A DNA stretch of 39,377 bases from positions 1 through 39,377 of the IMG/VR virus record IMGVR_UViG_3300028388_006417. One strand, written 5' to 3'. Shown piece after piece: positions 6,169 to 38,996 of this stretch (positions are counted from its first letter, which is position 1; each line of letters starts with the position of its first letter). The stretch is from a virus. The notes under the pieces were generated by a model. It saw only the letters and a list, made by a program, of their open reading frames with translations, searched no databases and was not told the origin of the DNA. The position numbers and the translations under genes are program-made.

Positions 6169-6170
6169 TG

Positions 6171-6698
6171 TTAGTCGAAGCTGATATTCGTCAACGACAC
6201 CTGCGAGCAGTTTGCGGGGGTGTTGAGGAAGTTCATGCTGAAGGTGCCACCGGCGTTGACGATTCCGACGCTTGTGCCCGCGAATACCCCGTCGCACTGA
6301 AGGGCCGCATCAATGTAGTCCGCTTGCACAGTGACGATACCTTCGACCGTGACATAACCACCCTTATCAACCGCGCGCCAATTCGAGATTGGGCCATTGA
6401 GCGCAGAATTCCGGGCCTTGTTAAGCCCCTGATTGCAGAAATCGCGGGCGTCTGCTTCGCTCATGTCGTACATGGCTTTGACTACAGTCGGGGTGAACAA
6501 TTTGCGCTCGATAGCGGTGTCAAAGTCAACCTCAGCCATTTCGCAAGTTATTCGGATTCCCTTAGCGGCATTTTGGTATGTCAAGCTGCGGGCAACCGCG
6601 GCTTGCGTGGTGCGGGCTTGGTCTTCTTGCCAACCAGCCTGAACGTTGAAGCTAGCGGCGATGATGGCGGCTGCGAAGATGATGATGATGCGGTTCAT
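6171..6698 (-). CDS. secreted protein of unknown function (moron)
   Basis: This 175-residue protein is coded opposite to the tail operon, between the chaperone and pre-tape-measure genes. It begins with a clear Sec signal peptide (MNRIIIIFAAAIIAASFNVQA, cut expected after residue 21) and has no lipobox Cys. The mature part has paired Cys residues and a beta-rich C-terminus, consistent with a periplasmic or outer-membrane role. I use the ATG at 6698 because AAGGAA precedes it; the upstream in-frame ATG lies in the leader stem-loop. Its position and private promoter mark it as a moron; envelope modification or superinfection exclusion is a guess. Confidence 0.75.
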   Translation of the reverse strand: MNRIIIIFAAAIIAASFNVQAGWQEDQARTTQAAVARSLTYQNAAKGIRITCEMAEVDFDTAIERKLFTPTVVKAMYDMSEADARDFCNQGLNKARNSALNGPISNWRAVDKGGYVTVEGIVTVQADYIDAALQCDGVFAGTSVGIVNAGGTFSMNFLNTPANCSQVSLTNISFD

Positions 6699-6717
6699 GT
6701 CGATTTCCTTCTGTTGT

Positions 6718-6776
6718 GGCGGGGGCTTGTCCCCCAACCGATGAATATAGTATAAGATCCGCCATTACTGTGTCAA
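6718..6776 (-). promoter_or_regulatory. promoter plus 5' stem-loop for the moron gene
   Basis: Reading leftward: TTGACA (6776-6771), 16-base spacer, TATACT (6754-6749), then a stem-loop within 6739-6718 (GGGGG-ACAAG-CCCCC core) and AAGGAA before the ATG at 6698. The arrangement is the same as in front of early genes at 27840, 28470 and 31026. Confidence 0.75.
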
Positions 6777-18092: not shown

Positions 18093-20872
18093 TTTACATT
18101 TCCCCAGTCTGTGCCGACTTCGCAGTCTACGAGAACTGGCACTCTCAAGATTATAGCCGAAGACATAATTTGGGTCAACTCCTTAAAACCGTCTGCTGAC
18201 TCTGCCGTTCCTGGATCTGAAAAGTCCAGCTCGTCATGGACAGTGACTACGGGATACCCAGTAGCATCAAAGACTCCCGCCTCATGCGCTTTCACCATTG
18301 CTTGTTTCATCAAGTCGGCAGCGCTGCCCTGTAGTCTCCTGTTCAATGCCTTGTGCGTAGCAAAGCGTTGAATATTACCTTTTCCATATTTCTCGCAGGC
18401 TTGTTCGTAAGGCAGCCCTTGCCGTGCTCCATTAGAGCGACCTTTTCTTTCCCACAAAGCGAACCGCGATCTGCGGCCCATAATGGTCTCGATGTAACCA
18501 TCTTTCAGCGCTTTGTCGGCAAAGTAGTCGAACGTGGCTTTTACAAACGGCACACCTTTGTGATAAGCGGCAAATAACTCTTCGGCTTCTCTTCGGCTGA
18601 GGCCAAGCGTCGCAGCGAGCTTGTCTTTGCCCATGCCATAACAGTTAGCTACTAAAACGCCTTCGCAAGTAAAGCGATGTCTAGGCCCTGCATTTAAGAT
18701 GTCGAACGTTTCCGCCGATTGAGTAGATTCTCTGATCGAGTAACCAAGCGTAAATTTTTTGGAGAATAGTTTCCGTCGTTGTCCGTCCGGTCGAAATCCA
18801 GAGCCAAGATATCGTCGTCTTTGAATTCTTCCAAAGCCCAGCGTATAAAGTGCTCTCGACTCTCGAACTCCACGGTTATCCCGCGGCCGTGATAGTTTTT
18901 GCTTGACACGTGTGTGGTTCTTTCGCATCGCTGAATCATCGAATCGTATCTCGCTCCCAGTGAATCGATAACCTGCACAGGTCGATTGAAGTATTTCCGT
19001 TTCTTGCATCGCTTGCACTTGTTTGTCTTTCCATTTCTTAAGTTGTATTCGTAAACGGTAAAGACTTCTCCGCAAAGTTTGCAGCGTACGTCCAGCATCA
19101 AATCGCCTCTTCCTTGACGACGCAGCGTATTCGGTTGAATCTCCAAGAAAGGTAGTTTTAATTGCTTCAGCATCGTTTCCCGTTCGGACAAGTCGAGAAA
19201 CCTCGGATGCTGCTTTCCAGAGCGGAACGAAGTCGAATTTCTTGCCATCGTACACAGCCACCTTGTGGTCCGGGGTTGCGGTTAGACCTTCGTAGGTCAT
19301 TATCTGCTTGATGCCTTTTGACACAACGCCATCGTGTTTGACCCAAGTCACGCCGTCCCACAAAAGGTCTGTGGTCAGAACTTGTTCGATTGGCACAGGC
19401 CCACGATTTGTGAGAACGCGCTGTCCTTTAGCGATGCAAAGTCCAAAGTTTATACCTTTGGTCGCCGTCCTCTTTAATTGCTTGCCCGACCTTTCAAGCA
19501 CGAGGTGTTGTGTGCTTTCGTGAAAGTCCGTTGACGGATCATTGCGGTACATTTCTCTCGCGCGCTCCGCTCCGTCTCCTACCGCATCATGCACCAGCAA
19601 CCGGTATTCGATCTGCGAGTAATCAAACTTTCTCCAGCACGAGTGACCTTCAAACGGAACAAACAACCCACGAATAAGCGGGCCAAGCTCAGGGTCTCTT
19701 GCTGGGATGTTTTGAAGGTTTGGGTCCGAGCTACTAAACCGACCCGACGCGGCGCCTCCGTCATCTTTTCTAAGCGGATGAAAAGAACAGTGGACTAGGC
19801 CGTCTACTTGCTTCTCAAGCAAGTAATTCTGAATAAAGGTAGTGGCTGCTTTGTGGTAACGTCGAGCAGACACTATATGCTGAGCGAGAGGATGGTCTTG
19901 CGATTCGAGCCATTGCTGAGTGAAAGACGGTTTATTAGTCTTAGCGGTAGTTGGATAAGATACGCCTACCGCATCAAACGCTAAGGCAAGTTCTTCCGCG
20001 CTGTGTATATTGACTTCCGCTCTGCCTGAAATCTGCTCGATAGCCTTTACGTGGAATGCTTCCTTTACTAGAAGTTCTTCAGTAGCAACTTCTGCTTTGT
20101 CCAAGTCAACACGCACTCCGGTCTGTCGCATTTTCAGAAGCAGAGGAATCAATGCGGATTCCATTTCAAATACGTCAAGCAAGTTTTCTTTGTGTAGCAG
20201 GTCGTACTGCTTCTTAAAAACTTCAATCGGCAATGCTGCATCTTGTTCCGCGTATGGACCGACAAGCTCTACAGGAGCGCGCCATATATTAGCGCGTTGC
20301 TTACCGTCTGGTGCTCCGCCATAGCTTGCTGCACACCACTCGTAAAGCTCGTTCGAGACCTTTCCCTCACCGCAATACTTCCGACCTAACGCTTCAAGCG
20401 AATAGGACAGCGCCCAATCGTCTAAAAGAGCTTCGGCAAACTGCACATCGTAGAGCTTGCCTTTGACTTCTACTCCGCTATCAGACAGCCATCCGCAATC
20501 GTAGAGCAGGTTTGCGCCTACCTTGACTTGTTTTTCATTACTAAGAGCGTCCGCCACAAAGCGAAGGACAGCATCGCGGTCTAGGTTTCCTCCTAAGTGG
20601 TGCGCTATTGGAAAGTACCACGACGCGTCTTCTGTGGCAAGTGAAATGCCGACAACATATCCGCTATTTCTGCTCCATCCTGGACCAGCCGTTGTCATTT
20701 CCGGGTCGTAGGTTTCCGTGTCGAACGCAATGACGGGCGTGTTAGAAAGATTCGGGAACTCTGTCGGCGGTTGCCAGCCAGTGGCCGGAATTGGCGCCAA
20801 AGGCCGTGATCCGCCTTTCATACCCCGAGCTCTTTTGTGCTCCTGCGTGTAGAAAAGACCTTGTTGAAACAT
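18089..20872 (-). CDS. polA: family A DNA polymerase interrupted by an intein
   Basis: The 927-residue precursor is a PolA-type replicase of about 662 residues plus a 265-residue intein. A DEDD 3'-5' exonuclease is intact: FDTET (Exo I), ANLLYD (Exo II) and YAEQD (Exo III). Polymerase motif A is DYSQIEYR and motif C is VHDEL. Motif B reads GINFGL, then the intein, then CYGMG, so splicing is needed for activity. The residue aligned to E. coli F762 is Phe. No 5'-nuclease domain is present. I start at ATG 20872, which overlaps the clamp stop as TAATG; the open frame continues upstream to 20905. Confidence 0.9.
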   Translation of the reverse strand: MFQQGLFYTQEHKRARGMKGGSRPLAPIPATGWQPPTEFPNLSNTPVIAFDTETYDPEMTTAGPGWSRNSGYVVGISLATEDASWYFPIAHHLGGNLDRDAVLRFVADALSNEKQVKVGANLLYDCGWLSDSGVEVKGKLYDVQFAEALLDDWALSYSLEALGRKYCGEGKVSNELYEWCAASYGGAPDGKQRANIWRAPVELVGPYAEQDAALPIEVFKKQYDLLHKENLLDVFEMESALIPLLLKMRQTGVRVDLDKAEVATEELLVKEAFHVKAIEQISGRAEVNIHSAEELALAFDAVGVSYPTTAKTNKPSFTQQWLESQDHPLAQHIVSARRYHKAATTFIQNYLLEKQVDGLVHCSFHPLRKDDGGAASGRFSSSDPNLQNIPARDPELGPLIRGLFVPFEGHSCWRKFDYSQIEYRLLVHDAVGDGAERAREMYRNDPSTDFHESTQHLVLERSGKQLKRTATKGINFGLCIAKGQRVLTNRGPVPIEQVLTTDLLWDGVTWVKHDGVVSKGIKQIMTYEGLTATPDHKVAVYDGKKFDFVPLWKAASEVSRLVRTGNDAEAIKTTFLGDSTEYAASSRKRRFDAGRTLQTLRRSLYRLRIQLKKWKDKQVQAMQETEILQSTCAGYRFTGSEIRFDDSAMRKNHTRVKQKLSRPRDNRGVRESRALYTLGFGRIQRRRYLGSGFRPDGQRRKLFSKKFTLGYSIRESTQSAETFDILNAGPRHRFTCEGVLVANCYGMGKDKLAATLGLSRREAEELFAAYHKGVPFVKATFDYFADKALKDGYIETIMGRRSRFALWERKGRSNGARQGLPYEQACEKYGKGNIQRFATHKALNRRLQGSAADLMKQAMVKAHEAGVFDATGYPVVTVHDELDFSDPGTAESADGFKELTQIMSSAIILRVPVLVDCEVGTDWGNVK
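18644..19438 (-). mobile_element. intein in polymerase motif B
   Basis: The insert runs from Cys1 (CIAKGQRVLTNRGPVPIEQV, block A) through block B (LTATPDHKVAVYDG) to the C-terminal splicing blocks (ETFDILNAGPRHRFTCEGV, then LVAN). It is followed by Cys+1 of the C-extein (CYGMGK). All splice-junction residues are present: Cys1, block-B TxxH, penultimate region ending in Asn, and +1 Cys; the usual penultimate His is replaced by Ala. The 265 residues exceed a mini-intein, but the middle 170 residues in this frame are basic and match no endonuclease. The endonuclease lies in the +1 frame instead. Confidence 0.88.
18694..19173 (-). CDS. HNH homing endonuclease nested out of frame in the intein
   Basis: This 159-residue protein is read in the +1 frame relative to the polymerase/intein. 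It has an N-terminal CxxC...CxxC zinc domain (CKLCGEVF and CKRCKKRKY) and a family-typical HNH region: YDSMIQRCE, NYHGRGITVEF, LDFDRTDNDGNYSPKN and LRLVTRSENLLNRRKR. It spans exactly the gap between intein blocks B and F, where an in-frame homing endonuclease usually sits. The frame is open up to 19248 (an earlier ATG); I chose the ATG at 19173, just before LKQLKLPFLEIQPN. Translation would need internal initiation or frameshifting. Confidence 0.82.
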   Translation of the reverse strand: MLKQLKLPFLEIQPNTLRRQGRGDLMLDVRCKLCGEVFTVYEYNLRNGKTNKCKRCKKRKYFNRPVQVIDSLGARYDSMIQRCERTTHVSSKNYHGRGITVEFESREHFIRWALEEFKDDDILALDFDRTDNDGNYSPKNLRLVTRSENLLNRRKRSTS

Positions 20873-21852
20873 TACTTGAGTCCCACCATAACGCCGACAA
20901 AACAATCGCCTTTGAATCGAGCAGGCTGGGAGAACAAGTCGGCGTGGGTAGCGTTCTTTAGAGTCCTCGTGATGTGCCCAGCTCGGTAGTTTCCTCTGCC
21001 TACCTGTTCGCTCTCGACTTCAGCAGAGGTGTTCCCTTCAACTGTGGAAAGACCTTTTTCAGTTAAAGAAATCACTTGAGTTGCCGAGTCTTCGCAGAAG
21101 ACAGACAAAGCTTTCACATCATCACGAAGTGTTTGCTGAAGCTCAAACTCATCGCCTAAATCAAAAGCCAGCATGTCAGGAATGGTTTCCGGCCATTGCT
21201 CGTCGATCATTGGCGAGCTCAGCCATGCGGTATCGTAACCAAAGATTATTTGATTATCGCTCACATCCAAGAATGTTGGAAAAACATCGTTGTTCTTTAC
21301 GATTACTCCGACCGTATAGACTGGAACGATGATGGGGGTTTCAATCGGAAGAGGAAGGTCGTATCGAATGAGTGTTGTGTTGTTAGTGGCGTACGCGTAT
21401 TTACCATCGAGCATAATACCGCAAGACCACAGCGCGGTTCTTCCAGCTTCACCAATAAAGGGGAGCAAAGTAGTAAATGCGTCGATGAGCTGCTCCCCAT
21501 TGTCGATGACGTTAGAATGCTCTGGCGCCGCTACAGCGGGGTACTGGTCGAGCTTGCCGCCCGGGACCATTTGAACTTTCAGGGAGCCTCGCTTGATTAC
21601 GAGTCTCTTGTTGAAAGAGATGTTCAACTCATCGCGGTTTAGTGTGTACGCTTTGATGAACTTAGATGCAGGGACTATCACCTCTAGCTCTCCAAGCTGA
21701 GGATCGTCGCTCATCGCTCCGGCAGTGATCTTGCCGTCGCTTACCTGAATCATGCCGTTATCGATGTAGATATTGGCAAGAATAGGATTGAGCGGTTTTT
21801 CAGTGACTACACGACTGAGAAATTCGAGTTGCTGAACAGTTGTTGCAGACAT
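20872..21852 (-). CDS. DNA polymerase sliding clamp-like protein
   Basis: The 326-residue protein resembles phage beta-clamp-like proteins. Supporting segments are LEFLSRVVTEKPLNPILANI, IYIDNGMIQVSDGKI, EVIVPASKFIKAY and GRTALWSCGIMLDGKYAYAT. They give the repeated strand-helix units of DnaN-like clamps, though similarity to bacterial DnaN is low. It would tether the polymerase to DNA. Both neighbours support this: it starts on the last base of the dpdA stop and its own stop overlaps the polymerase start (TAATG). The alternative is an unrelated replication accessory protein. Confidence 0.68.
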   Translation of the reverse strand: MSATTVQQLEFLSRVVTEKPLNPILANIYIDNGMIQVSDGKITAGAMSDDPQLGELEVIVPASKFIKAYTLNRDELNISFNKRLVIKRGSLKVQMVPGGKLDQYPAVAAPEHSNVIDNGEQLIDAFTTLLPFIGEAGRTALWSCGIMLDGKYAYATNNTTLIRYDLPLPIETPIIVPVYTVGVIVKNNDVFPTFLDVSDNQIIFGYDTAWLSSPMIDEQWPETIPDMLAFDLGDEFELQQTLRDDVKALSVFCEDSATQVISLTEKGLSTVEGNTSAEVESEQVGRGNYRAGHITRTLKNATHADLFSQPARFKGDCFVGVMVGLK

Positions 21853-26333: not shown

Positions 26334-26686
26334 CCTTGCTTCAGTAGCTCTTTACCCTTTTTCCATACCGTCAAACGGATGCCTTTGAACTTGCGAGCTT
26401 GAGTATAGGTCAAGGCTCTGGCGATGTTTCGGCAATCAAAGGTCCTGCACATGATCGGTTTGGTCTCGTGGATTGTGCAGCCACCTTTGCCGAGGTAAAC
26501 GCAGTTGCCATTAGGTTTGTGCGCTAGCATGAGCTGCCCCGGAAACAGCGGGTGAGGCTCTGTCTGGTACTCGCTTGGAAAGTCTCCCGGCAGGAGCCTG
26601 ACCATATCGCCGCGACAGCACAAGGTGCATCCGTTGCACGGCACAACGCCCGGGTCCTTCGACCCGGGTGTCGCACCATCTCCCAT
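26330..26686 (-). CDS. YkgJ-like Cys-cluster protein
   Basis: The 118-residue protein has the CxxCxxxCC signature (CNGCTLCC) at about 17-24 and a second set, NCVYLGKGGCTIHETKPIMC, then RTFDC. These define the putative zinc- or iron-chelating family. Biochemical function is unknown; members occur in many phages and bacteria. The ATG at 26686 overlaps the upstream stop (TAATG). A strong palindrome (CCCGGGTC/GACCCGGG) lies inside the first codons. Confidence 0.7.
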   Translation of the reverse strand: MGDGATPGSKDPGVVPCNGCTLCCRGDMVRLLPGDFPSEYQTEPHPLFPGQLMLAHKPNGNCVYLGKGGCTIHETKPIMCRTFDCRNIARALTYTQARKFKGIRLTVWKKGKELLKQG

Positions 26687-27594
26687 TACGCAGCCTCGGC
26701 CTTGTCTTCGGTCTCCTCCTCAGCCTTGGGCTCCTCGCGGAACTTCTCGCCAGTCAGATCCTCGGCGAGCTCGACTGCGAGGTTGAACGTGCTCCAGTAG
26801 GACTGAGCCATCGCGGCGCTGATGTCCATCTCGGCCCATGCGACGAACGCCTCGCCTCGCTTGGCGTCGAGGTGATCCTTAAACCACTTCCATGCGGCCT
26901 CGCGCTTCTCCGACCCACCGCGATCCGATGCCAGGCCCATCGACTTGATGGTCGACTGGTAGACGCCAGCCGCGCTGTTTTCGGTGTAGCCAAACTCGTC
27001 GATCAGATCCTGGATGATGTCCTTGCGTTCCTTGTTCGCGTCCAGACCCTTCTTGATCAGCGCGGTGCGCTCTTCAACAGAGGCCCGAGCAGTGGGGCGG
27101 CCGGTGAGCTCGAAGCCGTGCATCTTGAGGTAGTTGCGCATGTGCGCCTGAAGCGACGCATCCGTCAGCCCGGACTCTTCCTTGGCCTTCTCGAAGGCTT
27201 GCTTCCGAGCCTCCTGGAGATCGTCCGGCGGGTTCTCCGGATCGATCATCTCGCGAAAGACTTTGAAAGCCGCGATCTTGCCCGCACCGCGGTCGGAAGT
27301 GGCCGTGATGTTGTGAATCTGGCAGAACATCGGGTAGAGAGTCGTCGCGAGGTTCTTTGAGCACTCGCTAGCTGCGATCATGCGGTCGATCACACCAACG
27401 CGGGTGACGTCCGGGTCTTTCACGGCTTCCAGGAATGCGGCCTCGGCGAGATCGCGCTTGGACATTTTGGCTTCGGTCATAGCTTTCTCCAGCTTATTGA
27501 TCAATTGATCTTTGGTTGAGCGCTTTGCGTAAGCAACTCCTGCATCATCGGCCACTTTTCGCAGTTCAGCAACGGTCATTTCTTCAAAATTCAT
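26686..27594 (-). CDS. SAP/HeH-like protein with repeated HTH-like motif
   Basis: The 302-residue protein begins with a SAP/HeH-like helix-extended-helix unit (MTVAELRKVADDAGVAYAKR, then TKDQLINKL). It then carries up to three copies of an HTH-like motif shared with neighbouring genes. The clearest is KERKDIIQDLIDEFGYTENS, AAGVYQS; weaker ones are near residues 60-90 and 240-275 (AMAQSYWSTFN). The C-terminus is acidic (EEPKAEEETEDKAEAA). DNA or chromatin-like binding is likely from the SAP-like part; the function is unknown. Confidence 0.62.
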   Translation of the reverse strand: MNFEEMTVAELRKVADDAGVAYAKRSTKDQLINKLEKAMTEAKMSKRDLAEAAFLEAVKDPDVTRVGVIDRMIAASECSKNLATTLYPMFCQIHNITATSDRGAGKIAAFKVFREMIDPENPPDDLQEARKQAFEKAKEESGLTDASLQAHMRNYLKMHGFELTGRPTARASVEERTALIKKGLDANKERKDIIQDLIDEFGYTENSAAGVYQSTIKSMGLASDRGGSEKREAAWKWFKDHLDAKRGEAFVAWAEMDISAAMAQSYWSTFNLAVELAEDLTGEKFREEPKAEEETEDKAEAA

Positions 27595-27615
27595 GTTGAC
27601 TTTTCCTTTTAGTTG

Positions 27616-27635
27616 GCGGAGCCCGAAGGCCCCGC
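27616..27635 (-). promoter_or_regulatory. UUCG-capped leader hairpin
   Basis: On the leftward RNA, GCGGGGCC-UUCG-GGCUCCGC forms an eight-pair stem (one G-U) with a very stable cUUCGg loop. It lies 22 bases before the ATG at 27594, with AAGGA between. No T tract follows, so it is a leader structure rather than a normal terminator. Confidence 0.6.
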
Positions 27636-27648
27636 GTGGATAAGCAGG

Positions 27649-27840
27649 TTAAAATCCGGCCTCGGTGCCGATCAACGTTTGCTGCCCGTCAGTGACATCG
27701 AAGACCTTGTCATCGATGGCAGCGCTGATCATGGTGCCGTTGTCGGTCAAGAAGACTCCGATAATCCCCAAATCTTGAATCTGGCGGACGGAGATCTGAA
27801 CCTCGGTGCCGTTCAAGTCAGTGTAGGTCAAGGTGTTCAT
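27649..27840 (-). CDS. 63-residue protein, unknown
   Basis: A small beta-rich protein (MNTLTYTDLNGTEVQISVRQ, GIIGVFLTDNGTMISAAIDD). It has its own promoter, leader stem-loop and GAGGAAACGAC ribosome site, so it is probably highly expressed early. No family recognised. Confidence 0.65.
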   Translation of the reverse strand: MNTLTYTDLNGTEVQISVRQIQDLGIIGVFLTDNGTMISAAIDDKVFDVTDGQQTLIGTEAGF

Positions 27841-27859
27841 GTCGTTTCCTCGGGCGCTT

Positions 27860-27920
27860 GGTTGGGAGCTGTTCTCCCAACCGTTAGAGACACTATACTA
27901 GTGTCTGCGAGGTTTGACAA
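27860..27920 (-). promoter_or_regulatory. promoter plus 5' stem-loop for the 27840 gene
   Basis: Leftward: TTGTCA (27920-27915), 17-base spacer, TATAGT (27897-27892), then a perfect nine-pair hairpin (27882-27874 with 27868-27860; loop AACAG) starting near the expected mRNA 5' end. The stem ends 20 bases before the ATG. Confidence 0.78.
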
Positions 27921-28470
27921 CCCAAGCTTCCATGATCCTGCGCTTAGAGTAAGCTGCCCAATCTTGAATCTCGTAGCCGTCAAATCCTACTACGTGCCCT
28001 CGCACCAGGAGGACAACTTTCTGGCCTGCGTAGTTAGCACGAAGCTCCGTCTCCGAGGACCGAAGGGTTTTAGCGTTGAGCTCAATCGGCTCCACGTCGA
28101 AGCCCAACCGGTCGAAGATAGGGAACCATCGATCAAAGCGCATGCCTTGCCCACTTTTCCGACCCTCAATCTCGCAGAGCATATGCATGGTCTTGTAGTG
28201 GACGCCTGTAACTACGGAAAACATTTTGACTACGCAGTCGTTGCGTTCGCCGAACGTACTAGACAAAGCAACGAGCTCAGAATACTCGTAAGTAGGCTGG
28301 TAAGCTGACCTGGCTTGCTCTGCAACGCGGTGTTCTTTTTTCCAAGCAGCGTAGATCGTTGACGCAGTCGTTGCCTTGACGCCTTGCGCAACGCACAGCT
28401 CGATGATTTTCTTTCGAGGCGCTGAAGGATAAGCATCGGCGATGGCTCGGACTCGAAGTGTCGGTTTCAT
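27898..28470 (-). CDS. HTH-like domain fused to a cysteine-protease-like domain
   Basis: The 190-residue protein starts with the HTH-like motif (RVRAIADAYPSAPRKKIIEL, then CVAQGVKATTASTIYAAWKK). Residues 75-190 show a pattern I associate with papain/C39-like folds in phage proteins: GERNDCVVKMFSVVTG with a Cys after Asp, HMLCEIEGRKSGQG, VVLLVRGHVVGF with a Gly-His, and EIQDWA with Asp. Cys/His/Asp are in catalytic order, so a peptidase-like activity is possible but unproven. Its promoter cassette lies directly upstream. Confidence 0.6.
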   Translation of the reverse strand: MKPTLRVRAIADAYPSAPRKKIIELCVAQGVKATTASTIYAAWKKEHRVAEQARSAYQPTYEYSELVALSSTFGERNDCVVKMFSVVTGVHYKTMHMLCEIEGRKSGQGMRFDRWFPIFDRLGFDVEPIELNAKTLRSSETELRANYAGQKVVLLVRGHVVGFDGYEIQDWAAYSKRRIMEAWVVKPRRH

Positions 28471-28489
28471 TTTCGTTTCCTAGTCTCGT

Positions 28490-28549
28490 CGGTCGGGGCC
28501 TGCCCCCGACCGTTAGAACTATCTTACCGAAACCTTATGCCTTGGTCAA
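28490..28549 (-). promoter_or_regulatory. promoter plus 5' stem-loop for the 28470 gene
   Basis: Leftward: TTGACC (28549-28544), 17-base spacer, TAAGAT (28526-28521), then a perfect nine-pair hairpin (28512-28504 with 28498-28490; loop GCAGG). The ribosome site AGGAAACGAAA follows and the stem ends 20 bases before the ATG. The -35 overlaps the end of the upstream gene. Confidence 0.75.
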
Positions 28550-28957
28550 CTTGTTCTTGACGTCTTCGGGCATCGGAATCTTCCAGACACCGTCAACTTC
28601 TTTGTAGCCGAGCGCGCTGATCTCTTCATCTCTCAGGCACCGCCGTCCGTAGGTCGGGTGATCCATCGTGAACTCGCCGACTCGATGAGCATCGAAGGCT
28701 GTGATGCCGCCGAAGCTCTTGCCGCAGCTTATGCACTTGCAGCGGTTCTTCGGGATGTAGGAGCTGGGTGTGCTGGTCCGTGCGTAGTCGACAGTTTCTC
28801 CACGCTTCCAAGCCGCGAAGAACGTGCTCGCGCTGCCCTTGGAAATACCCTGCTTCGCGCAGAGGTCCAGCATCTCTTTGCGAGAAGCGCCCGGATTGGC
28901 TTCGCAGATCGCGTAGACCTGCGCTTTCACAGTCATGTTCTTTTTGCTTGCTTTCAT
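28535..28957 (-). CDS. HTH-like motif plus C2H2-like zinc finger protein
   Basis: The 140-residue protein has the same HTH-like motif as the 28470 gene (VYAICEANPGASRKEMLDLC, then AKQGISKGSASTFFAAWKRG). After it comes a finger-like CISCGKSFGGITAFDAHRVG. Both regions suggest nucleic acid or protein binding. I chose ATG 28957; GAGG is 17 bases upstream, which is long, and the frame is open to 29152. The finger has CxxC but only one His in the usual spacing, so zinc ligation is uncertain. Confidence 0.62.
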   Translation of the reverse strand: MKASKKNMTVKAQVYAICEANPGASRKEMLDLCAKQGISKGSASTFFAAWKRGETVDYARTSTPSSYIPKNRCKCISCGKSFGGITAFDAHRVGEFTMDHPTYGRRCLRDEEISALGYKEVDGVWKIPMPEDVKNKLTKA

Positions 28958-28992
28958 AACTTTCGTGGTTGTTTCCTCAGGCGGTACGCATA

Positions 28993-29253
28993 TCAATTTT
29001 CTCCGATGCGGTGTGGTGGCGTCCGTGCCCCGCAAAACGTGCAAAATCCCTCCCGCACGTAGGCGGCCGGGTCGTTTTCGCAACCGTGGCAGCCGCGGTG
29101 GACGGGCGGAGTCGCGTAAGACTCCGCTCGAAGCTGACCATTCTCCAAACACACTGCGCCGGTTGGCACAGTGTCCGGGTTGGTGGGGTCGATCGGGTCA
29201 GCCGGCGCGTCCGGGAACGCGAACCGGCTGACGGTTTTGGTTGCTTTGTTCAT
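28993..29253 (-). CDS. small zinc-ribbon-like protein
   Basis: The 86-residue protein starts MNKATKTVSRFAFPDAPADP and has CHGCENDPAAYVREGFCTFC, a compact CxxC...CxxC set, in the C-terminal third. The ATG at 29253 overlaps the upstream stop by ATGA. The middle is Pro/Asp-rich and probably flexible. Function unknown. Confidence 0.6.
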   Translation of the reverse strand: MNKATKTVSRFAFPDAPADPIDPTNPDTVPTGAVCLENGQLRAESYATPPVHRGCHGCENDPAAYVREGFCTFCGARTPPHRIGEN

Positions 29254-29444
29254 CCGGAGTGATCCTCCGTCGGGCCGTAGTACTTCTGCTTGGGGTCGTG
29301 TGCGGGCTGTGCAAAATGCAGCCCGCCGCAATGGTGGCAAGTGGTGAAGCCAATCTTGTTATTGGCTTCCTCCTCGCTTCGCGCCATGACGCGAACATCT
29401 GCGGATGCCCCGCAGGTGCCGCAAAAGAACTGGTACTCGGTCAT
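29250..29444 (-). CDS. small zinc-ribbon protein (64 aa)
   Basis: The protein has CGTCGASADVRVMARSEEEA followed by TTCHHCGGLH: two CxxC knuckles about 25 residues apart, as in a zinc ribbon. It overlaps both neighbours by ATGA, so three genes form one translational unit. Role unknown; such ribbons often bind RNA polymerase or nucleic acid. Confidence 0.65.
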   Translation of the reverse strand: MTEYQFFCGTCGASADVRVMARSEEEANNKIGFTTCHHCGGLHFAQPAHDPKQKYYGPTEDHSG

Positions 29445-29761
29445 AACGCCGCCTTTCTCACGTGCACCATCGGCGGCGCTCCGTCCGCATCCAACCGGCC
29501 TTCTGCGGCCGCCATGCCGCTTGCGTGCGCATCCTCATAGGACGCGAACCAGCCAGGCACTTGCTCCTCATGAAACCCCCCACTCCATGAGGCGTTGACG
29601 AACAACAGGCTGGCCCTAAACGGGCGGGGTAAAGGCTCCTCAGTCCAATAGCATTCCCGTTCGTCCATGATTACCGGGAACCCATAGTCATCCGGCCGTT
29701 TGTTTTCCGTAGCGAAGGGCTGCCCCGTAATGGCGTCACGCAGGACCCAGTGTGTATTCAT
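29441..29761 (-). CDS. 106-residue protein, unknown
   Basis: First gene of a four-gene unit. The sequence (MNTHWVLRDAITGQPFATEN, PGWFASYEDAHASGMAAAEG) has the look of a small alpha/beta protein with a short repeat of strand then helix. AGGAG precedes the ATG and a CCCCGC-UUAG-GUGGGG hairpin lies 13 bases upstream (29789-29774). No family recognised. Confidence 0.55.
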   Translation of the reverse strand: MNTHWVLRDAITGQPFATENKRPDDYGFPVIMDERECYWTEEPLPRPFRASLLFVNASWSGGFHEEQVPGWFASYEDAHASGMAAAEGRLDADGAPPMVHVRKAAL

Positions 29762-29773
29762 TTCTCTCTCCTA

Positions 29774-29789
29774 CCCCACCTAAGCGGGG
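29774..29789 (-). promoter_or_regulatory. leader hairpin before the 29761 gene
   Basis: On the leftward RNA, CCCCGC and GUGGGG pair around UUAG (one G-U). No convincing promoter boxes are seen between this hairpin and the upstream stop at 29820. Confidence 0.4.
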
Positions 29790-29819
29790 CGCTGTAATGG
29801 GTTAGGGTTGGGGTTTGTG

Positions 29820-30305
29820 TCAGCCGCGGCCGCGGCCGCACTCTCGAAAGCGAAGGTGACGGAATACCGCCACTTTTCGAACCGAGCCGTCGGGCTGCGT
29901 TTGATCCTCGCTCACGCGCTCAGTGAGCGCGCGCACAGGGATGCCGCCGACGCGGCGGATAGCCGCTTCCAGGTACTCCATCAGATCGGCTTGCCCGCCG
30001 ACCATGAAGCGGACGGCGGCCGCTTGACGGTGGACGCGGATTACGTCCGCGTCGTCATCGGCATCAGCGCCGGCGGCGGAACGGATGCGCTCCGCGATGG
30101 CCGGGACAGCCCAGCGGGACACTATCTCTTGGGCGCGGCCCGAGAGATCGTAATCCAAGAACTCGTCCGACGCCTTCAGGGCGTCGGCCGGCACCGTCAG
30201 AAGCTTGGACAGCTCTAGACGTTCAGCAGTAGGGAGGTCCGCCAGTCCAGCGGCGGCCTGGCTCTCGGTCGCGGTGTGTTGCGTCAAATTTACGATCTTA
30301 GGCAT
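29820..30305 (-). CDS. 161-residue phage protein, unknown
   Basis: The protein begins MPKIVNLTQHTATESQAAAG, an opening I have seen in other phage accessory proteins of no known role. It has a helical middle and a C-terminal half RFMVGGQADLMEYLEAAIRR, then VFRHLRFREC. GGAG precedes the ATG and a separate promoter is present. The codon choice is strongly GC-rich compared with the replication genes. Confidence 0.6.
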   Translation of the reverse strand: MPKIVNLTQHTATESQAAAGLADLPTAERLELSKLLTVPADALKASDEFLDYDLSGRAQEIVSRWAVPAIAERIRSAAGADADDDADVIRVHRQAAAVRFMVGGQADLMEYLEAAIRRVGGIPVRALTERVSEDQTQPDGSVRKVAVFRHLRFRECGRGRG

Positions 30306-30346
30306 GTCTCTCTCCGTTGTTGCGGTGGGCGGTGGGTTTGCCGGCG

Positions 30347-30418
30347 TCCTAGCCGACTAGGAGCATGTTTATCGTCTCGCTTCCATGACAGTATGCACGT
30401 CCTTGTGTCGAAGATCAA
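30347..30418 (-). promoter_or_regulatory. promoter and leader hairpin for the 30305 gene
   Basis: Leftward: TTGATC (30418-30413), 17-base spacer, CATACT (30395-30390), then TCCTAG-TCGG-CTAGGA (30362-30347). The -35 overlaps the stop of the 30813 gene. Boxes are weaker than in the other cassettes and the hairpin lies farther from the start (42 bases). Confidence 0.55.
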
Positions 30419-30813
30419 CGCCTTGTGAACTTGTGCCAATAGGTCGCAGCAGTCGCCGGATTGAGCCCGCTCTCAAGCGCAGCCCTCATGTAGCTCTTGC
30501 GAGTCGGCCAAGCACGACTATAGTAGAGCTGGCGGAGCTGGTAGACCGGAGTCTGCTCTTTCTTGAGCATCTTCTGAGTCTGCTTCATTTCCTTGATCTT
30601 GACCCGGACTTCTTTAGCTTCTGCCTCCAACGCGCGGAGACGGCACTCCAGCCTCTCCAGCTTGGTATTATCGGGCATGCTCGCTTCCGCGATCGCTTGA
30701 GCAAGCTGCTCTTTGGTCCAGCGCTTACCATGCTCGATACTGTGTTCTTCGCAGTATTCCAGCAGCTCTTTTTTGCTGGCTTCGGGGAGGTTGTTAAGAT
30801 CGATGGCCATCAT
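30415..30813 (-). CDS. SAP/HeH-like, coiled-coil, HTH-like protein
   Basis: The 132-residue protein repeats in short form the plan of the 27594 gene. It has a SAP/HeH-like start (SKKELLEYCEEHSIEHGKRW, then TKEQLAQAI), a coiled coil (about 55-95, LERLECRLRALEAEAKEVRV) and a C-terminal HTH-like motif (TRKSYMRAALESGLNPATAA, then TYWHKF). GAGGGAAACGAAAC precedes the ATG. Sequence-nonspecific DNA binding or a dimeric regulator is plausible; function unknown. Confidence 0.6.
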   Translation of the reverse strand: MMAIDLNNLPEASKKELLEYCEEHSIEHGKRWTKEQLAQAIAEASMPDNTKLERLECRLRALEAEAKEVRVKIKEMKQTQKMLKKEQTPVYQLRQLYYSRAWPTRKSYMRAALESGLNPATAATYWHKFTRR

Positions 30814-30834
30814 GTTTCGTTTCCCTCGTTCAGC

Positions 30835-31026
30835 TTACGCGGAAAACCAAAGGTCATAGAGGCGGCTTCCGATCGCGGTAGGGCTTTCCAAGAAACTGTA
30901 GTTTACCCCGGCAGCAGCCTGCACCCCGAAAATGATGTGCCCGGTGATGTTCCGCGGGCTGCCGATCAGGACAACACGGTCCTCGATTCGGCTCATCTTC
31001 GGCTGGAAAGTGGTTTGGTTGGTCAT
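30835..31026 (-). CDS. 63-residue protein, unknown
   Basis: The small protein (MTNQTTFQPKMSRIEDRVVL, GSPRNITGHIIFGVQAAAGV) is beta-rich with an aromatic C-terminus. It has a full promoter, stem-loop and AGGAAACGAAA ribosome site, so strong early expression is expected. No family recognised. Confidence 0.62.
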   Translation of the reverse strand: MTNQTTFQPKMSRIEDRVVLIGSPRNITGHIIFGVQAAAGVNYSFLESPTAIGSRLYDLWFSA

Positions 31027-31049
31027 TTTCGTTTCCTGTTGTTTCTGGC

Positions 31050-31106
31050 GGGGGCCTGTCCCCCAACCGATGAAGACAGTATACTAGGCTCCCTTGTCGG
31101 GGTCAA
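31050..31106 (-). promoter_or_regulatory. promoter plus 5' stem-loop for the 31026 gene
   Basis: Leftward: TTGACC (31106-31101), 17-base spacer, TATACT (31083-31078), then GGGGG-ACAGG-CCCCC (31064-31050). From the -10 box to the ribosome site this copy is closely similar to the cassette at 6718-6776. Confidence 0.78.
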
Positions 31107-31257
31107 CAAGTTTCAGCTTCCCCGCAGGAGTTGCGCCTTGAAGTTCAGTTCGACGTTTCATAATCCGCGCGTCAGCCCTCCCATCTTGCCAGCACTGCTC
31201 CAAGGGGATCTTGCGCTTGCGGAAGATCATCGCATCAGTCCAGGTCAAGGTAATCAT
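31084..31257 (-). CDS. 57-residue basic protein, unknown
   Basis: The protein reads MITLTWTDAMIFRKRKIPLE and continues QCWQDGRADARIMKRRTELQ. It is strongly basic with a Trp-rich start. The ATG at 31257 shares a base with the upstream stop (TGATG); the in-frame start at 31290 is less likely. No family recognised. Confidence 0.5.
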   Translation of the reverse strand: MITLTWTDAMIFRKRKIPLEQCWQDGRADARIMKRRTELQGATPAGKLKLVDPDKGA

Positions 31258-31466
31258 CAGAAAGGGATCTTCTCTGTTCCTTGCCCGCACCCTGTCACCT
31301 GAACTTCAGGTGGTGGCTTTTCACCAAACTTTTCGCACTCCCCTTGAGAAAAGTGCTCGCATTCAGCGCATGGTATGGTCACCTTAATCTGCTCAATCAG
31401 ATCGATCAGCCTCCTTTTCTGATTCGAAGTCAAGTCGAACGACTTTAGGATATTTTCCGCTGACAT
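31257..31466 (-). CDS. small Cys-containing protein, unknown
   Basis: The 69-residue protein has a helical start (MSAENILKSFDLTSNQKRRL) and a Cys set CAECEHFSQGECEKFG plus a late CGQG, suitable for one zinc ion. Its ATG (31466) lies inside the 3' end of the helicase gene, an overlap of 74 bases, with GAGG upstream. A TTG at 31469 is also in frame. Confidence 0.55.
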   Translation of the reverse strand: MSAENILKSFDLTSNQKRRLIDLIEQIKVTIPCAECEHFSQGECEKFGEKPPPEVQVTGCGQGTEKIPF

Positions 31467-32958
31467 CAACGCGTATCCTCGCTGGTTTGGCTAGTTCGTG
31501 AGTTCTCTCCAGAGCTTCATCTACAGAATCCGGATAAGGCTTTTCGCCGCCCATCTGAAGCCAGAAATTTGACGAGATAAAGCGCTGCTTAAAAGATACC
31601 CAGTGGTAAAACTCTTGTAAACCGCACTGAAAGCTCAGTTTAAGAGAAGCGTTGCCGTTAGATCTTTTGATGTGTTTGCTGTACTCGACAGAATCGACAT
31701 TGACCCATGCCGGTTCAACCATAAAGTCTTCGAGACGCACCACATTATCGTTAGCAGCCGTGGACGAGATTTTTTCCTGAAATTGAAACTCGTGACCGCA
31801 TGTGGAGCACGTTTTTGAAGCTGCATGAATGATCGATGAGCATTTAGGGCAGGTTTTGGTGAAAGGTTTTCCGTTGCCATCTCCTTTGCGCTTGGGACCG
31901 AGGTGCACATCGTTGATTGGTCCGAGACGGTGAGTATTGCCAGCAAAGTCGAGAATGAGGCAATTTTCCTTGCCTTCAGCAACACGGAACCCTCGACCAA
32001 TCATCTGAACATGCAAAACTGGCGAAGCGGTAGGGCGCAACAGCACAATCAAGTCAATACGCGGATCGTTGTACCCAGTGGTAAGCATATTAACATTGAC
32101 CAGCGCTTGGTAAGCATCGGCGTTATCCAGTATTTCATCGCGGTTCATCTTTGAATGGATGACGCCGCTTTTGATACCGTGGTCGTTTAGCCAATCGTTG
32201 ATATGTTCTGCATGCTCGATATCAATCGCGAAGACCAGCCACTTCTTGCGACTGTCCTTATACTGCAGGGTTTCTGTCAACGCGTTGTGCGTAATGGCCT
32301 CGCGGTCTACGGCCTCCCGCAGTTGCTGAGGCAGGAACTCACCGGCTCGGATGCCGACATCGGAAACATCGATTTCTGTCCGCGGTTGCTTGGTGATCAG
32401 GTTGGTCAAATATCCTTCTCGAATTAGCTGACCAAGCTTGTCTTTGCAGTCATACGCGATATCAGTAAACAGCTCACCATCGGTCAACATTCCAGTGCCG
32501 AGCCGAAACGGCGTGGCGGTGAATCCAACGACATAGCTGTCGACTTGATCCAGGAACTTTCGGTACATTGACCGACCGCGATCTGGCACCAAATGTGCTT
32601 CATCGATCAACACAAGGTCAAACTCCAGAATCTCCGCCATGCGCCAAATCGATTGAATGGACGCGAACGTGATCGGCCGAAGCTCTCGGCGATTGAGCCC
32701 CGCAGAGAAAACGCCGACAGGCGCGTTTGGCCAGATTCGCAACAGTTCCTGTTCGTTTTGCCGGACCAGCTCTTTTTGATGGGTCAAGCAAACAATCTTT
32801 TGATCTGGCCACTTTTCGAATGTTTGCCGGAGGAACTCCGCAATGATAAAGGATTTGCCGCCACCAGTCGGAACGACGACAAGCGGGTGCCCTTTCTTGG
32901 TCTGAAAGTAATTGAAGACCGCCTTGACGGCTTCAGTTTGATACCATCTTGGGTGCAT
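31393..32958 (-). CDS. SF2 helicase (DEAH type) with zinc ribbon
   Basis: The 521-residue protein has a complete SF2 core: PTGGGKS (30-36, Walker A), LIDEAHLVP (DEAH 119-122), VGFTATPFR (motif III), LTTGYNDP and MIGRGFRVAEG (motif VI). A zinc ribbon follows (CPKCSSIIHAASKTCSTCGH). It resembles phage RecG/UvsW/RAD3-like DNA helicases used in recombination-dependent replication and branch migration. I start at ATG 32958 (MHPRWYQTEAVKAV); an upstream ATG at 33075 has a fair ribosome site but would overlap the nuclease gene by 143 bases. Confidence 0.87.
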   Translation of the reverse strand: MHPRWYQTEAVKAVFNYFQTKKGHPLVVVPTGGGKSFIIAEFLRQTFEKWPDQKIVCLTHQKELVRQNEQELLRIWPNAPVGVFSAGLNRRELRPITFASIQSIWRMAEILEFDLVLIDEAHLVPDRGRSMYRKFLDQVDSYVVGFTATPFRLGTGMLTDGELFTDIAYDCKDKLGQLIREGYLTNLITKQPRTEIDVSDVGIRAGEFLPQQLREAVDREAITHNALTETLQYKDSRKKWLVFAIDIEHAEHINDWLNDHGIKSGVIHSKMNRDEILDNADAYQALVNVNMLTTGYNDPRIDLIVLLRPTASPVLHVQMIGRGFRVAEGKENCLILDFAGNTHRLGPINDVHLGPKRKGDGNGKPFTKTCPKCSSIIHAASKTCSTCGHEFQFQEKISSTAANDNVVRLEDFMVEPAWVNVDSVEYSKHIKRSNGNASLKLSFQCGLQEFYHWVSFKQRFISSNFWLQMGGEKPYPDSVDEALERTHELAKPARIRVDVSGKYPKVVRLDFESEKEADRSD

Positions 32959-33739
32959 AGTATTGACAGCCTTCTCGCTGTTGTGCTTCTGTTCTGTTAT
33001 GTTTGTGGAGCATGCAATACCAGACCCCGGAGTCTCTCTTTTCGTGGTGCTTGCATGTGCGGCAGTTTTGTTCATAAGGTCTACCTTCCCAACAAATCGC
33101 TCGAGCTTGGCAGTATGTGCAATCTATGCAGTCAGGATTACTAAACCCGCGAGGAGGCGGAAAATCGGAGAGGACGATTTCTTCTTCTCTTTTCTTGTAT
33201 TGCTTTCCTATTTCTTTTGAAGGCGTATACCGCCTTGCCAAAACCTCGTCAGTGTTTTTATTGATCGCGATATATAGAGCTCTGCTGAGTTTCAAGTCAT
33301 AGCAGTATCGCTCCATCTGCCCGGTATGCTTGGTCGGTATACCGACCTCTTTCAGCTTCTGGAAGCTCTTTTCGTTGTGCGTTTTGATTTCCAGCAAATG
33401 AAGAGTGTCGGGGGCCTCGAGCACTCCGTAGCAGGTTCCGTCGATGTGCCCTTTGACAAACCCCCACGCGCCCACCAGCTCGAGTTGTGTGTCATGAACT
33501 TCGATTCCGTGGTCGCCGAGCATTTCGTAGATGACGTCTTCGATTAAGTGCCCTCTTTTGAAAAGGCGCTGCAACCGAAGCGGTATTGTTTCTACAAAAG
33601 CCCAGTGAAGGTAGTACCACAGATAGCGATTGCAGGGATGCCCGATCATGGACATTCCGAGGTACGGCCGAAGAGGCACGTCTACGGTTGTTTCGTTGAG
33701 CGCAATGGAGGTTTGCAGTTCGAGAGGAAGTTTCGCCAT
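32933..33739 (-). CDS. Cas4/RecB-like PD-(D/E)XK nuclease with Cys clusters
   Basis: The 268-residue protein has the PD-(D/E)XK core: RGHLIEDVIYEML (His/Glu), GHIDGT (Asp100) and LLEIKT (Glu117, Lys119). Cys36 plus CIDCTYCQARAIC (204-216) match the 4Fe-4S arrangement of Cas4/AddB-like exonucleases. A second set follows (CRTCKHHEKRDSGVWYC, then GCQYY; Cys226, 229, 242, 258), which may bind zinc. It probably makes single-stranded ends for the neighbouring recombination proteins. Confidence 0.8.
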   Translation of the reverse strand: MAKLPLELQTSIALNETTVDVPLRPYLGMSMIGHPCNRYLWYYLHWAFVETIPLRLQRLFKRGHLIEDVIYEMLGDHGIEVHDTQLELVGAWGFVKGHIDGTCYGVLEAPDTLHLLEIKTHNEKSFQKLKEVGIPTKHTGQMERYCYDLKLSRALYIAINKNTDEVLARRYTPSKEIGKQYKKREEEIVLSDFPPPRGFSNPDCIDCTYCQARAICWEGRPYEQNCRTCKHHEKRDSGVWYCMLHKHNRTEAQQREGCQYYAPKMVSN

Positions 33740-33939
33740 TAGCGAGAGAGACCGCGTTGCTTGAGTTCTTGTTCGAGTGAAATGCCGGGTGTTTCTGGCT
33801 CTAGGTCATCCCAGCAGTAAATGCAAAACCATCCTTGTTGTGAGTCAGACCACCAAAGGTCTTCGGCTGGCCACGTGTGGTCTTCGCAGCATGCTGAGTT
33901 TTTGCAGCAATAGAGGGGTTCGGGAAGTTTCTTAGTCAT
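33739..33939 (-). CDS. small zinc-finger-like protein (66 aa)
   Basis: The protein has CCKNSACCEDHTWPAEDLWW followed by FCIYCWDDLE, a CC...CC...CxxC set suggesting one or two zinc ions and a Trp-rich surface. I use the ATG at 33939; a C-UGCG-G capped hairpin ends 24 bases upstream. Its stop overlaps the nuclease start (TAATG). Function unknown. Confidence 0.55.
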   Translation of the reverse strand: MTKKLPEPLYCCKNSACCEDHTWPAEDLWWSDSQQGWFCIYCWDDLEPETPGISLEQELKQRGLSR

Positions 33940-34111
33940 GAAAAAACACCTGATAAAGCTCTGTCCTTGCCGCAGCAAGGACTCTCGGCCGAGCAAGCCG
34001 GCGGGTTCGGTCACGATAGGTGGCCCGGACCACGAGAGGATGGGCAGGCAAGGTCATCTGTGACATCCGCTGAGGCTGGGTAATTAGCGCCACCCATAGC
34101 CTCGGTGGGGC
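33940..34111 (-). other. structured noncoding leader region
   Basis: No credible gene is seen here. On the leftward strand the region contains GAGGCT-at-GGGT, a ten-base loop, then ACCCAGCCTC (ten pairs with a two-base bulge). It also has GTCA-CAGA-TGAC, GTGG...CCAC and, next to the downstream gene, GTCCTTGC-TGCG-GCAAGGAC (33982-33963; eight pairs with a cUGCGg loop). It could be a structured RNA or a 5' leader; no promoter boxes were convincing. Confidence 0.45.
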
Positions 34112-34306
34112 TTAACCGACTAGGTTATGGTCATCCTTCCAATGGAGGACCATTTCTTTGATGCACAGCCAAAGGCTTTCGTAGGGACCGTACATCCAGC
34201 ATCTGTGAACGATGACCCAGGTAGCGTATTCACACGTGACGCCTGGCGGGTCCCTTCCAACAGAAAAACCAAAGATGTGCCACGTTTTGTGCCTTATTTC
34301 TTCCAT
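34112..34306 (-). CDS. 64-residue aromatic-rich protein, unknown
   Basis: The protein (MEEIRHKTWHIFGFSVGRDP, then CEYATWVIVHRCWMYGPYES) is rich in Trp, His and Cys. The start overlaps the end of the DUF669 gene by 13 bases, but no good ribosome site is present. It may be a real small gene in the recombination operon; confidence is limited. Confidence 0.42.
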   Translation of the reverse strand: MEEIRHKTWHIFGFSVGRDPPGVTCEYATWVIVHRCWMYGPYESLWLCIKEMVLHWKDDHNLVG

Positions 34307-34734
34307 GGTGCCGACTGAGTAGCAGCGGGCGCAGAGGAGGCCATGGGCGCAGGGCCGACGGCCATGACATCCAGAACGTTGTTGCGGTCGGGATACATGC
34401 CGCCCTCTTCGATTCCGAGCTTCACTTTGATCGGGATGCCGTGCAGCTCTTCGGTATCCGTGATCGCGACCTTATGGCACGCCTTGACGACCTTGGAGAG
34501 CTTGCCCTTGCCGATGCGTTCGGCAGTTGGGTTGCTGTTCTGGATGTTGAGCCGATCCACGACCACCGGCTCGCCTTGCGCGTGAATGCGATAGTGCAGC
34601 TCGACGTATTTGCCGCCGCTCTTCGAATCCTTGAGATCGCTGTTGATGATCTCGGCGGTGTATTCACCCTTGCTCAATACGGGGTTGCCCTCGTCTTCGT
34701 TTTCTTCAGCGTTGAATGTTCCGAGGAAGCTCAT
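34294..34734 (-). CDS. ssDNA-binding protein, DUF669
   Basis: The 146-residue protein matches DUF669: KGEYTAEIINSDLKDSKSGG, KYVELHYRIHAQGE, RLNIQNSNPTAERIGKGKLS and ELHGIPIKVKLGI. The tail is a flexible Ala/Pro/Ser stretch ending WKK, like the tails of phage SSBs. These proteins act as ssDNA-binding partners of Sak4/RecA-like proteins in phages. The start lies three bases after the Sak4-like stop. Confidence 0.8.
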   Translation of the reverse strand: MSFLGTFNAEENEDEGNPVLSKGEYTAEIINSDLKDSKSGGKYVELHYRIHAQGEPVVVDRLNIQNSNPTAERIGKGKLSKVVKACHKVAITDTEELHGIPIKVKLGIEEGGMYPDRNNVLDVMAVGPAPMASSAPAATQSAPWKK

Positions 34735-36199: not shown

Positions 36200-36222
36200 A
36201 AAGGGTCCTCGCAGGACCCTTT
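36200..36222. terminator. perfect 10-bp hairpin with flanking A/T tracts
   Basis: AAAGGGTCCT-CGC-AGGACCCTTT is a perfect hairpin. On the leftward strand the stem is followed by a T tract (36203-36196), so it can terminate leftward transcripts. On the rightward strand it is a leader stem-loop ending 14 bases before the ATG at 36236, like the other leader hairpins in this genome. Confidence 0.65.
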
Positions 36223-38993: not shown

Positions 38994-38996
38994 ATG
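38884..38996. repeat. CCTATC/GATAGG hexamer array (candidate iterons/operators)
   Basis: Seven exact hexamers lie at 38884, 38904 (reverse), 38915, 38922, 38942 (reverse), 38953 and 38960, with near copies at 38980 (AATAGG) and 38991 (CCTATG, covering the start codon of the last gene). One pair forms a perfect dyad, GATAGGT-AAT-ACCTATC. Confidence 0.75.

Follow-up and report, generated by a model that had tools for sequence, protein, structure and literature searches.

Single genes and expression vectors already offer examples of hairpins at the very 5' end that protect an mRNA from decay. A passage in PMC3997798 gives the need of RppH and RNase E for single-stranded 5' ends as the reason why 5' structures stabilize messages, and a title on the papA 5' stem-loop stands in the reference list of that paper. 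RNase E protection by the 5' stem-loops of ompA and T7 gene 10 is described as sequence independent in a passage of PMC2254391, which also reports that adding the T7 stem-loop to one vector quadrupled GFP, mRNA stability being unmeasured there. For the betaproteobacterium C. necator, passages in PMC6146998 report that, with three ribosome sites, adding the T7 stem-loop increased reporter protein 1.5-3 fold, that mRNA abundance rose as well, and that an arabinose construct gave a similar dose response after removal of the stem-loop. Here we describe a repeated unit of this general kind in a virus record of 39,377 bases that originates from a tailed phage (IMGVR_UViG_3300028388_006417; the whole stretch is called the window below). 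The unit, referred to as the cassette, joins a sigma70-type promoter to a GC-rich stem-loop at the predicted 5' end of the message and to a ribosome site just downstream; it recurs within the window, holds a fixed place relative to its promoter, is conserved across a clade of phages and covaries in its stem. We consider it likely that it is a reusable cassette in which a 5'-terminal stabilizing stem-loop has been fused to promoters of the host polymerase and reused across one phage clade. What appears to be new is that a family of host-polymerase phage promoters seemingly has such a hairpin as an integral part, which is repeated in genomes and covaries across phages.

The closest working analogue is the T7 gene 10 (phi10) leader, which, as read from the T7 record, has a stem of 8 base pairs (bp) with a loop of 5 nucleotides (nt), a fold energy of −13.4 kcal/mol and pairing from +1. 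Both have a stable helix at the extreme 5' end and a ribosome site downstream of it; however, the T7 stem begins at +1 of a phage-polymerase promoter, whereas that of the cassette begins at +3 or +4 of a sigma70-type promoter and belongs to a repeated family with its own start sequence, found across a clade. The promoter early stem-loops (PeSLs) were reportedly described by Arbiol et al. in 2010 and Comeau et al. in 2014. Passages in PMC4503421 and PMC3950731 present the PeSLs of T4-type phages and the HGTV-1 motifs as early promoters joined to stem-loops or inverted repeats and clustered densely in some parts of the genome, and mention the proposal that PeSLs aid gene shuffling; the 2014 PeSL title, as cited in PMC4503421, speaks of promoter-terminator motifs. 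The cassette is PeSL-like in being a promoter and stem-loop repeated as an intergenic unit, with four copies in the window, several in each relative and only 2 in phage S0112, but it differs from PeSLs, as far as their titles and these passages describe them, in having no T-run after the stem and no called terminator. Lambda nut boxB and HK022 put are likewise hairpins in nascent early phage RNA, although the cassette differs from them in its varying loop letters and loop length and in its position at the very 5' end. Rfam at the gathering threshold gave no match in the window. No description of the cassette was found by title or abstract start in the open-licence literature, and the words promoter, stem-loop and hairpin are absent from the S0112 and VpKK5 genome papers.

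A first-pass annotation of the window had claimed at least four leftward genes (start codons at 6698, 27840, 28470 and 31026), each with a sigma70-type promoter followed by a GC-rich stem with a five-base loop, and these four cassettes are all present as described. On the minus strand, each cassette reads −35, a spacer of 16 or 17 bases, −10, six bases, A-[T/A]-C-GGT[T/C]GGG, a 5-base loop, the pairing arm, AGGAAA and ATG. For every cassette, +1 was predicted as the seventh base after the −10. The parts are as follows.

6771..6776, minus strand: cassette 1, −35 TTGACA (11 of 12 consensus matches jointly with the −10)
6749..6754, minus strand: cassette 1, −10 TATACT after a spacer of 16; predicted +1 at 6742
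6718..6739, minus strand: cassette 1, stem-loop of 8 bp with a bulged U and loop ACAAG
6700..6710, minus strand: cassette 1, ribosome site AAGGAAATCGA before ATG 6698
27915..27920, minus strand: cassette 2, −35 TTGTCA
27892..27897, minus strand: cassette 2, −10 TATAGT after a spacer of 17; predicted +1 at 27885
27860..27882, minus strand: cassette 2, stem-loop of a perfect 9 bp with loop AACAG
27842..27850, minus strand: cassette 2, ribosome site AGGAAACGA before ATG 27840 (63-aa open reading frame (ORF), 27649-27840)
28544..28549, minus strand: cassette 3, −35 TTGACC
28521..28526, minus strand: cassette 3, −10 TAAGAT after a spacer of 17; predicted +1 at 28514
28490..28512, minus strand: cassette 3, stem-loop of a perfect 9 bp with loop GCAGG
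28473..28481, minus strand: cassette 3, ribosome site AGGAAACGA before ATG 28470 (190-aa ORF, 27898-28470)
31101..31106, minus strand: cassette 4, −35 TTGACC
31078..31083, minus strand: cassette 4, −10 TATACT after a spacer of 17; predicted +1 at 31071
31047..31068, minus strand: cassette 4, stem-loop of 8 bp with a bulged U and loop ACAGG
31029..31037, minus strand: cassette 4, ribosome site AGGAAACGA before ATG 31026 (63-aa ORF, 30835-31026)
18104..18178, minus strand: possible fifth unit, ahead of ORF 17775-18092, with promoter TTGACC-17-TATAAT and a hairpin that is larger and less regular; tentative because the hairpin shape differs

The stems start 8-9 bases past the −10, placing the first paired base at the predicted +3 or +4, and all four predicted messages begin with A, the window copies starting ATCGG or AACGG. 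The predicted leaders, counted from +1 to the start codon, are 44, 45, 44 and 45 nt long (in the order 6698, 27840, 28470, 31026, kept below), and the fold energies of the stems are −16.7 kcal/mol for 27840, −20.2 for 28470 and −13.7 for both 6698 and 31026. Over a length of 41 nt, cassettes 1 and 4 share 90% identity, though they lie 24 kb apart and stand ahead of unrelated genes. The possible fifth unit sits within the 3' end of the DNA polymerase gene, and clear cassettes are found immediately past the polymerase gene in the phages VPv64, Baskent, VpKK5, GH32 and 1.117.O.

To count such units we used a fixed rule, namely a promoter with at most 4 mismatches, a helix start from +1 to +6, an energy of −8 or lower, a ribosome site and an ORF of at least 40 codons. 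In the window the rule finds 7 units, whereas 10 Markov shuffles give a mean of 1.0 and a maximum of 4. The 7 are the four cassettes, one at 31138 (+) that is cassette 4 on the opposite strand, the possible fifth at 18092 (−) and a weak one at 18001 (−). The proposal of a repeated cassette with its stem at the predicted mRNA 5' end is thus upheld by this excess and by the helix start at +3 or +4. Placement points the same way. Around the window's 4 strong promoters (18155 and those of three cassettes; that of cassette 3, at 28526, is below threshold), mean fold energy has its minimum, −12.0, for the stretch starting 6 bases past the −10, compared with −8.6 at offset 0, −8.8 at offset 12 and −0.1 to −7.6 at the remaining offsets. 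The minimum at the predicted 5' end is also seen in related phages (n = 38, −8.5) and is only slight in the rest (n = 59, −4.2). When each leader was compared with 200 dinucleotide shuffles, z-scores were −1.98, −3.37, −3.87 and −1.20, with 7, 1, 0 and 26 of the 200 shuffles folding as well.

We next consider the relatives. The best polymerase matches, at 51-53% identity, are to Variovorax phage VPv64, Stenotrophomonas phages vB_SM_ytsc_ply2008005c (ytsc) and vB_SmaS_Bhz54, Pseudomonas phages Baskent_P4_1 and PSASB_03, and Microcystis phage Me-ZS1, and the polymerases of cassette-bearing phages are 53-70% identical to that of one member; at the DNA level, none of the phage records queried with window positions 26,500-34,500 was near. 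Units that open alike, with TCATGG or ATCGG ahead of a G-rich arm, occur in VPv64, ytsc, Baskent, Me-ZS1, VpKK5 and S0112, as well as in the IMG/VR contigs L012/L098, L015, L032 and L083, with further single copies in records of L032 (L097), L016 (L102) and L015 (L107). Under the fixed rule, units and shuffle means were 5 and 1.5 for VPv64, 4 and 0.9 for ytsc, 5 and 1.2 for Baskent, 4 and 0.7 for Me-ZS1, 9 and 1.6 for VpKK5, and 2 and 0.5 for S0112. Cassettes within one genome or in near-identical phages are more alike than those between phages (0.72 vs 0.59), the corresponding values for upstream DNA being 0.37 and 0.30.

Among other phages the same counts were 1 and 1.4 for lambda, 1 and 0.7 for BP63, 3 and 0.8 for Seurat, 2 and 0.8 for R3, 2 and 0.3 for HD01, 3 and 0.4 for PaMx25, 3 and 0.6 for PSV3, and 7 and 1.0 for Kaya, so phages outside the clade that has the unit's sequence in common may also possess its form, the clearest case being Kaya, whose hairpins are unrelated. 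In the Septimatrevirus phages Kaya and PSV3, at 9910 (+) of L009 and at 33701/33822 (−) of L007, TTGACA-17-TATAGT is followed by an unrelated 5' hairpin in three identical copies. Two hairpin units of contig L098 (IMGVR_UViG_3300044608_001820), at 1501 and 1824, lie ahead of tRNA-Lys and tRNA-Glu with no clear −35, in a stretch that holds 9 tRNA genes. Scans of viral contigs for the helicase and for the moron protein confirmed no relative, and the strict motif gave no match; the FolE scan returned a single contig, L002, where no such cassette was recognized. A pattern scan of bacterial genomes found 4 places, 0 of which fold into the cassette hairpin.

That the arms vary while their pairing is kept, as the first-pass annotation had noted in the window, holds there and in the relatives. 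Covariation was counted only on a gapless alignment of 17 columns (A3) comprising 17 hairpins, 16 of them distinct, with 5-nt loops by fold, drawn from 32 hand-picked cassettes; whole-cassette MAFFT alignments (A2, A4) left the loops out of register. In these 17 hairpins, 95.8% of stem cells are paired, compared with 75.2% when partners are shuffled (0 of 500 shuffles as high), and two-sided changes occupy 17 cells compared with 5.1. The covariation score is 0.599 against 0.207 in shuffles (0 of 500 as high) and falls to 0.08-0.20 when the partner is slid. The first-pass annotation had named a lack of conserved pairing in relatives as grounds for refutation, and these counts do not refute it. 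Between cassettes 2 and 3, U-A is replaced by C-G, and A-U by G-C one step off the loop; at the syntenic place just past the polymerase gene, VpKK5 and GH32 carry GGTTAAGGC...GCTTTAACC where 1.117.O carries GGGGGAG...CTCCCCC. Non-Watson-Crick stem positions in 31 distinct cassettes are more often G.T than A.C (21 vs 8, p = 0.024, a test weakened by the kinship of the sequences), beside 34 other mismatches; the strand-blind stem finder used for this test took a stem other than the fold in a few cases (e.g., L006:48201, L012:63, L013:10370). Such an excess agrees better with an RNA of the transcribed strand than with a DNA palindrome. Where the 5' arm begins, part of the sequence is conserved, too. 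Judged from these sequences, it is structure rather than sequence that is kept, and the hairpin probably works as an RNA shape.

In the mechanism that we propose, transcripts would start at the predicted +1 of the host sigma70-type promoter, and the first transcribed bases would fold into a stable stem-loop, with the ribosome site a short stretch beyond it. Such an mRNA would begin A-[U/A]-C-GG, leaving 2-3 unpaired bases ahead of the helix. So few unpaired 5' bases would hinder RppH and RNase E, because both rely on a single-stranded 5' end, and the message would live longer; by analogy with the ompA and T7 gene 10 leaders, the stem probably protects messages from decay. The ribosome site, about 7-9 nt past the stem, would remain mostly open. 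The host-type promoters, our only pointer to timing, suggest that the cassette genes may be early.

Several results weigh against this interpretation. The AGGA of the ribosome site is predicted to be unpaired with probabilities of 0.81, 0.25, 0.64 and 0.76, so that the site of 27840 would be just 25% open once the gene start is included in the fold. The hairpins of 6698 (z = −1.98) and 31026 (z = −1.20) are ordinary in energy for G-rich sequence, as are those of L003:35587 (z = −0.55) and L083:2342 (z = +0.58) for their letters, and of the 38 strong promoters in related phages just 15 beat letter shuffles at z below −2, compared with 3 of 4 in the window and 9 of 59 among the remainder. In a paired test over eight sources (the window, VPv64, Baskent, Me-ZS1, VpKK5, S0112, L032 and L083, with the near-duplicates ytsc and L015 excluded), energy was −10.0 at the 5' end and −6.3 in the flanks (n = 37, p = 4e-5), which is in its favor, but L032 and L083 had entered for having shown the cassette, and the VPv64 and Baskent polymerases both share 97-98% identity with the one of ytsc; confined to the five named polymerase relatives, the test gave n = 28 and p = 0.009. 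No difference from flanks was found for 47 promoters of other IMG/VR relatives (p = 0.73), for Septimatrevirus-type promoters (n = 7, p = 0.47) or for those of HD01, PaMx25 and R3 (n = 4, p = 0.56). The first held-out test of strong promoters, in GH32 and 1.117.O, reached only p = 0.06 (n = 17, 9 of them with an energy of −8 or below); strong promoters were too few for testing in Yong-L2-223 (1) and M39 (4). The fixed rule, which finds units above shuffle means in these newly fetched phages (7 and 1.1 in GH32, 7 and 1.3 in 1.117.O, 4 and 0.5 in M39, 3 and 1.5 in Yong-L2-223), was devised once their promoters had been seen. In the covariation analysis, two of the five measures are not clearly above shuffles: the number of pairs with any two-sided change was 4 against 2.7 in shuffles (61 of 500 as high) and that of further pair types 10 against 9.0 (182 of 500 as high); the aligned hairpins had been selected by their own fold, which favors pairing, and the sequences are related, so counts are not independent. 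A lax scan across all loci gave 158 matches where 92 were expected from shuffles, which restricts the signal to a portion of the set; many of the individual matches are chance.

These points bear most directly on whether G-rich sequence past promoters would fold anyway. Taken singly, the hairpins of 6698 and 31026 have energies that chance could supply, and significance accordingly lies in place and repetition; placement, repetition and covariation all disfavor chance, to which we give almost no credence. The placement just past +1 would also suit a DNA operator, an inverted repeat from about +3 to +26 at which a dimeric repressor shuts the promoters, and the letters of the 5' arm (GGTT, GGTC) are partly common to copies. 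Yet the arms differ within one genome and change together across phages, and G.T is tolerated over A.C, 21 to 8; we hold an operator to be very improbable.

Readings in which the hairpin acts as RNA have to be weighed on other evidence. It might be a translation element that folds the leader away and offers the ribosome an open standby stretch, stability being a by-product. The uniform distance in the window from the stem to the ribosome site and start codon would be expected of such an element, as would the gain in C. necator reporter protein that a passage in PMC6146998 reports for the T7 stem-loop with three ribosome sites. In relatives, however, the gap between stem and ribosome site varies from about 3 to about 30 nt although the stem remains close to the 5' end, and two copies in one IMG/VR phage precede untranslated tRNA genes (with no clear −35 there), which makes this explanation unlikely in our view. 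A hairpin ahead of tRNA genes in that contig would agree instead with a signal in nascent RNA, of the nut boxB or put type, by which a phage or host factor suppresses pausing or termination; a stem of about 9 bp closed by a 5-nt loop, close to the transcript start, is also reminiscent of boxB. Loop letters and lengths differ among copies of one genome and among phages, and we give this signal only a slim chance.

An intrinsic terminator was rejected, there being no T-run behind the stems and none called in terminator scans, and an RNase III site was rejected on the general knowledge that stems of 8-12 bp are too short. A leaderless mini-ORF, suggested by the TCATGG of relatives, which would put an AUG at about the message start, was set aside, the window copies ATCGG and AACGG having no AUG.

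If the stabilizing-cassette reading is true, these leaders would form a natural, sequence-diverse set of stabilizing leaders and a testable case of phages adding new genes with expression parts attached. A bolder version, which we regard as unlikely, is that a homologous, spreading unit of promoter and 5' hairpin gives newly acquired genes, such as the lone leftward moron-like gene and the tRNA genes of one contig, ready-made stable transcripts in phages of Variovorax, Stenotrophomonas, Pseudomonas, Vibrio, Shewanella and (as reported) Microcystis, and that a phage factor which marks phage RNA against decay may recognize the hairpin as well. The moron candidate is the 175-aa leftward ORF behind cassette 1 (6171..6698, minus strand), which stands alone amid rightward tail genes in a moron-like position and has a signal-peptide-like N-terminus by eye. 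It has no homologue in PHROGs, in Pfam above cut-off, in phage records or in IMG/VR, and the opposite-strand ORF 6165-6755 has none among phage records.

Further leader hairpins had been proposed before 27594, 29761, 30305, 33939 and 36236. Those before 27594, 29761, 33939 and 36236 do fold (z = −2.85, −2.02, −1.22 and −2.95), whereas that before 30305 is no better than shuffles (z = −0.39). None is the same cassette, as none lies behind a called promoter at cassette distance: the promoter scan found none at the proper distance before 27594, 29761, 30305 or 33939, and for 36236 a promoter is listed upstream but the hairpin starts about 20 bases past its −10. They look like gene-boundary hairpins. 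The hairpin before 36236 lies at 36200-36222, in the divergent region ahead of the primase gene, has 10 bp and is terminator-like on the minus strand.

The replication genes of the window, comprising DNA polymerase A, clamp, GTP cyclohydrolase, helicase, Cas4-type exonuclease, AAA ATPase and primase, are similar to those of phages bearing a 7-deazaguanine (queuosine-type) gene set. DNA polymerase A (18089-20905, minus strand) has an in-frame insertion of about 260 residues within the conserved INFGL/YGMG motif, which opens with CIAKGQRVLTNRG, closes with VLVAN before C-YGMG and is intein-like by eye; Pfam, at E up to 1, returned only polymerase and exonuclease domains for this protein. A 302-aa protein encoded at 26686-27594 (minus strand) has an N-terminal Rho_N domain (Pfam, 32 bits vs a cut-off of 24.9). 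At 38882-39003, a repeat rich in CCTATC/GATAGG occurs three times in tandem at a spacing of 38 bases; the copies are possible iterons or an origin, with a 24-base inverted repeat (38605-38684) close by.

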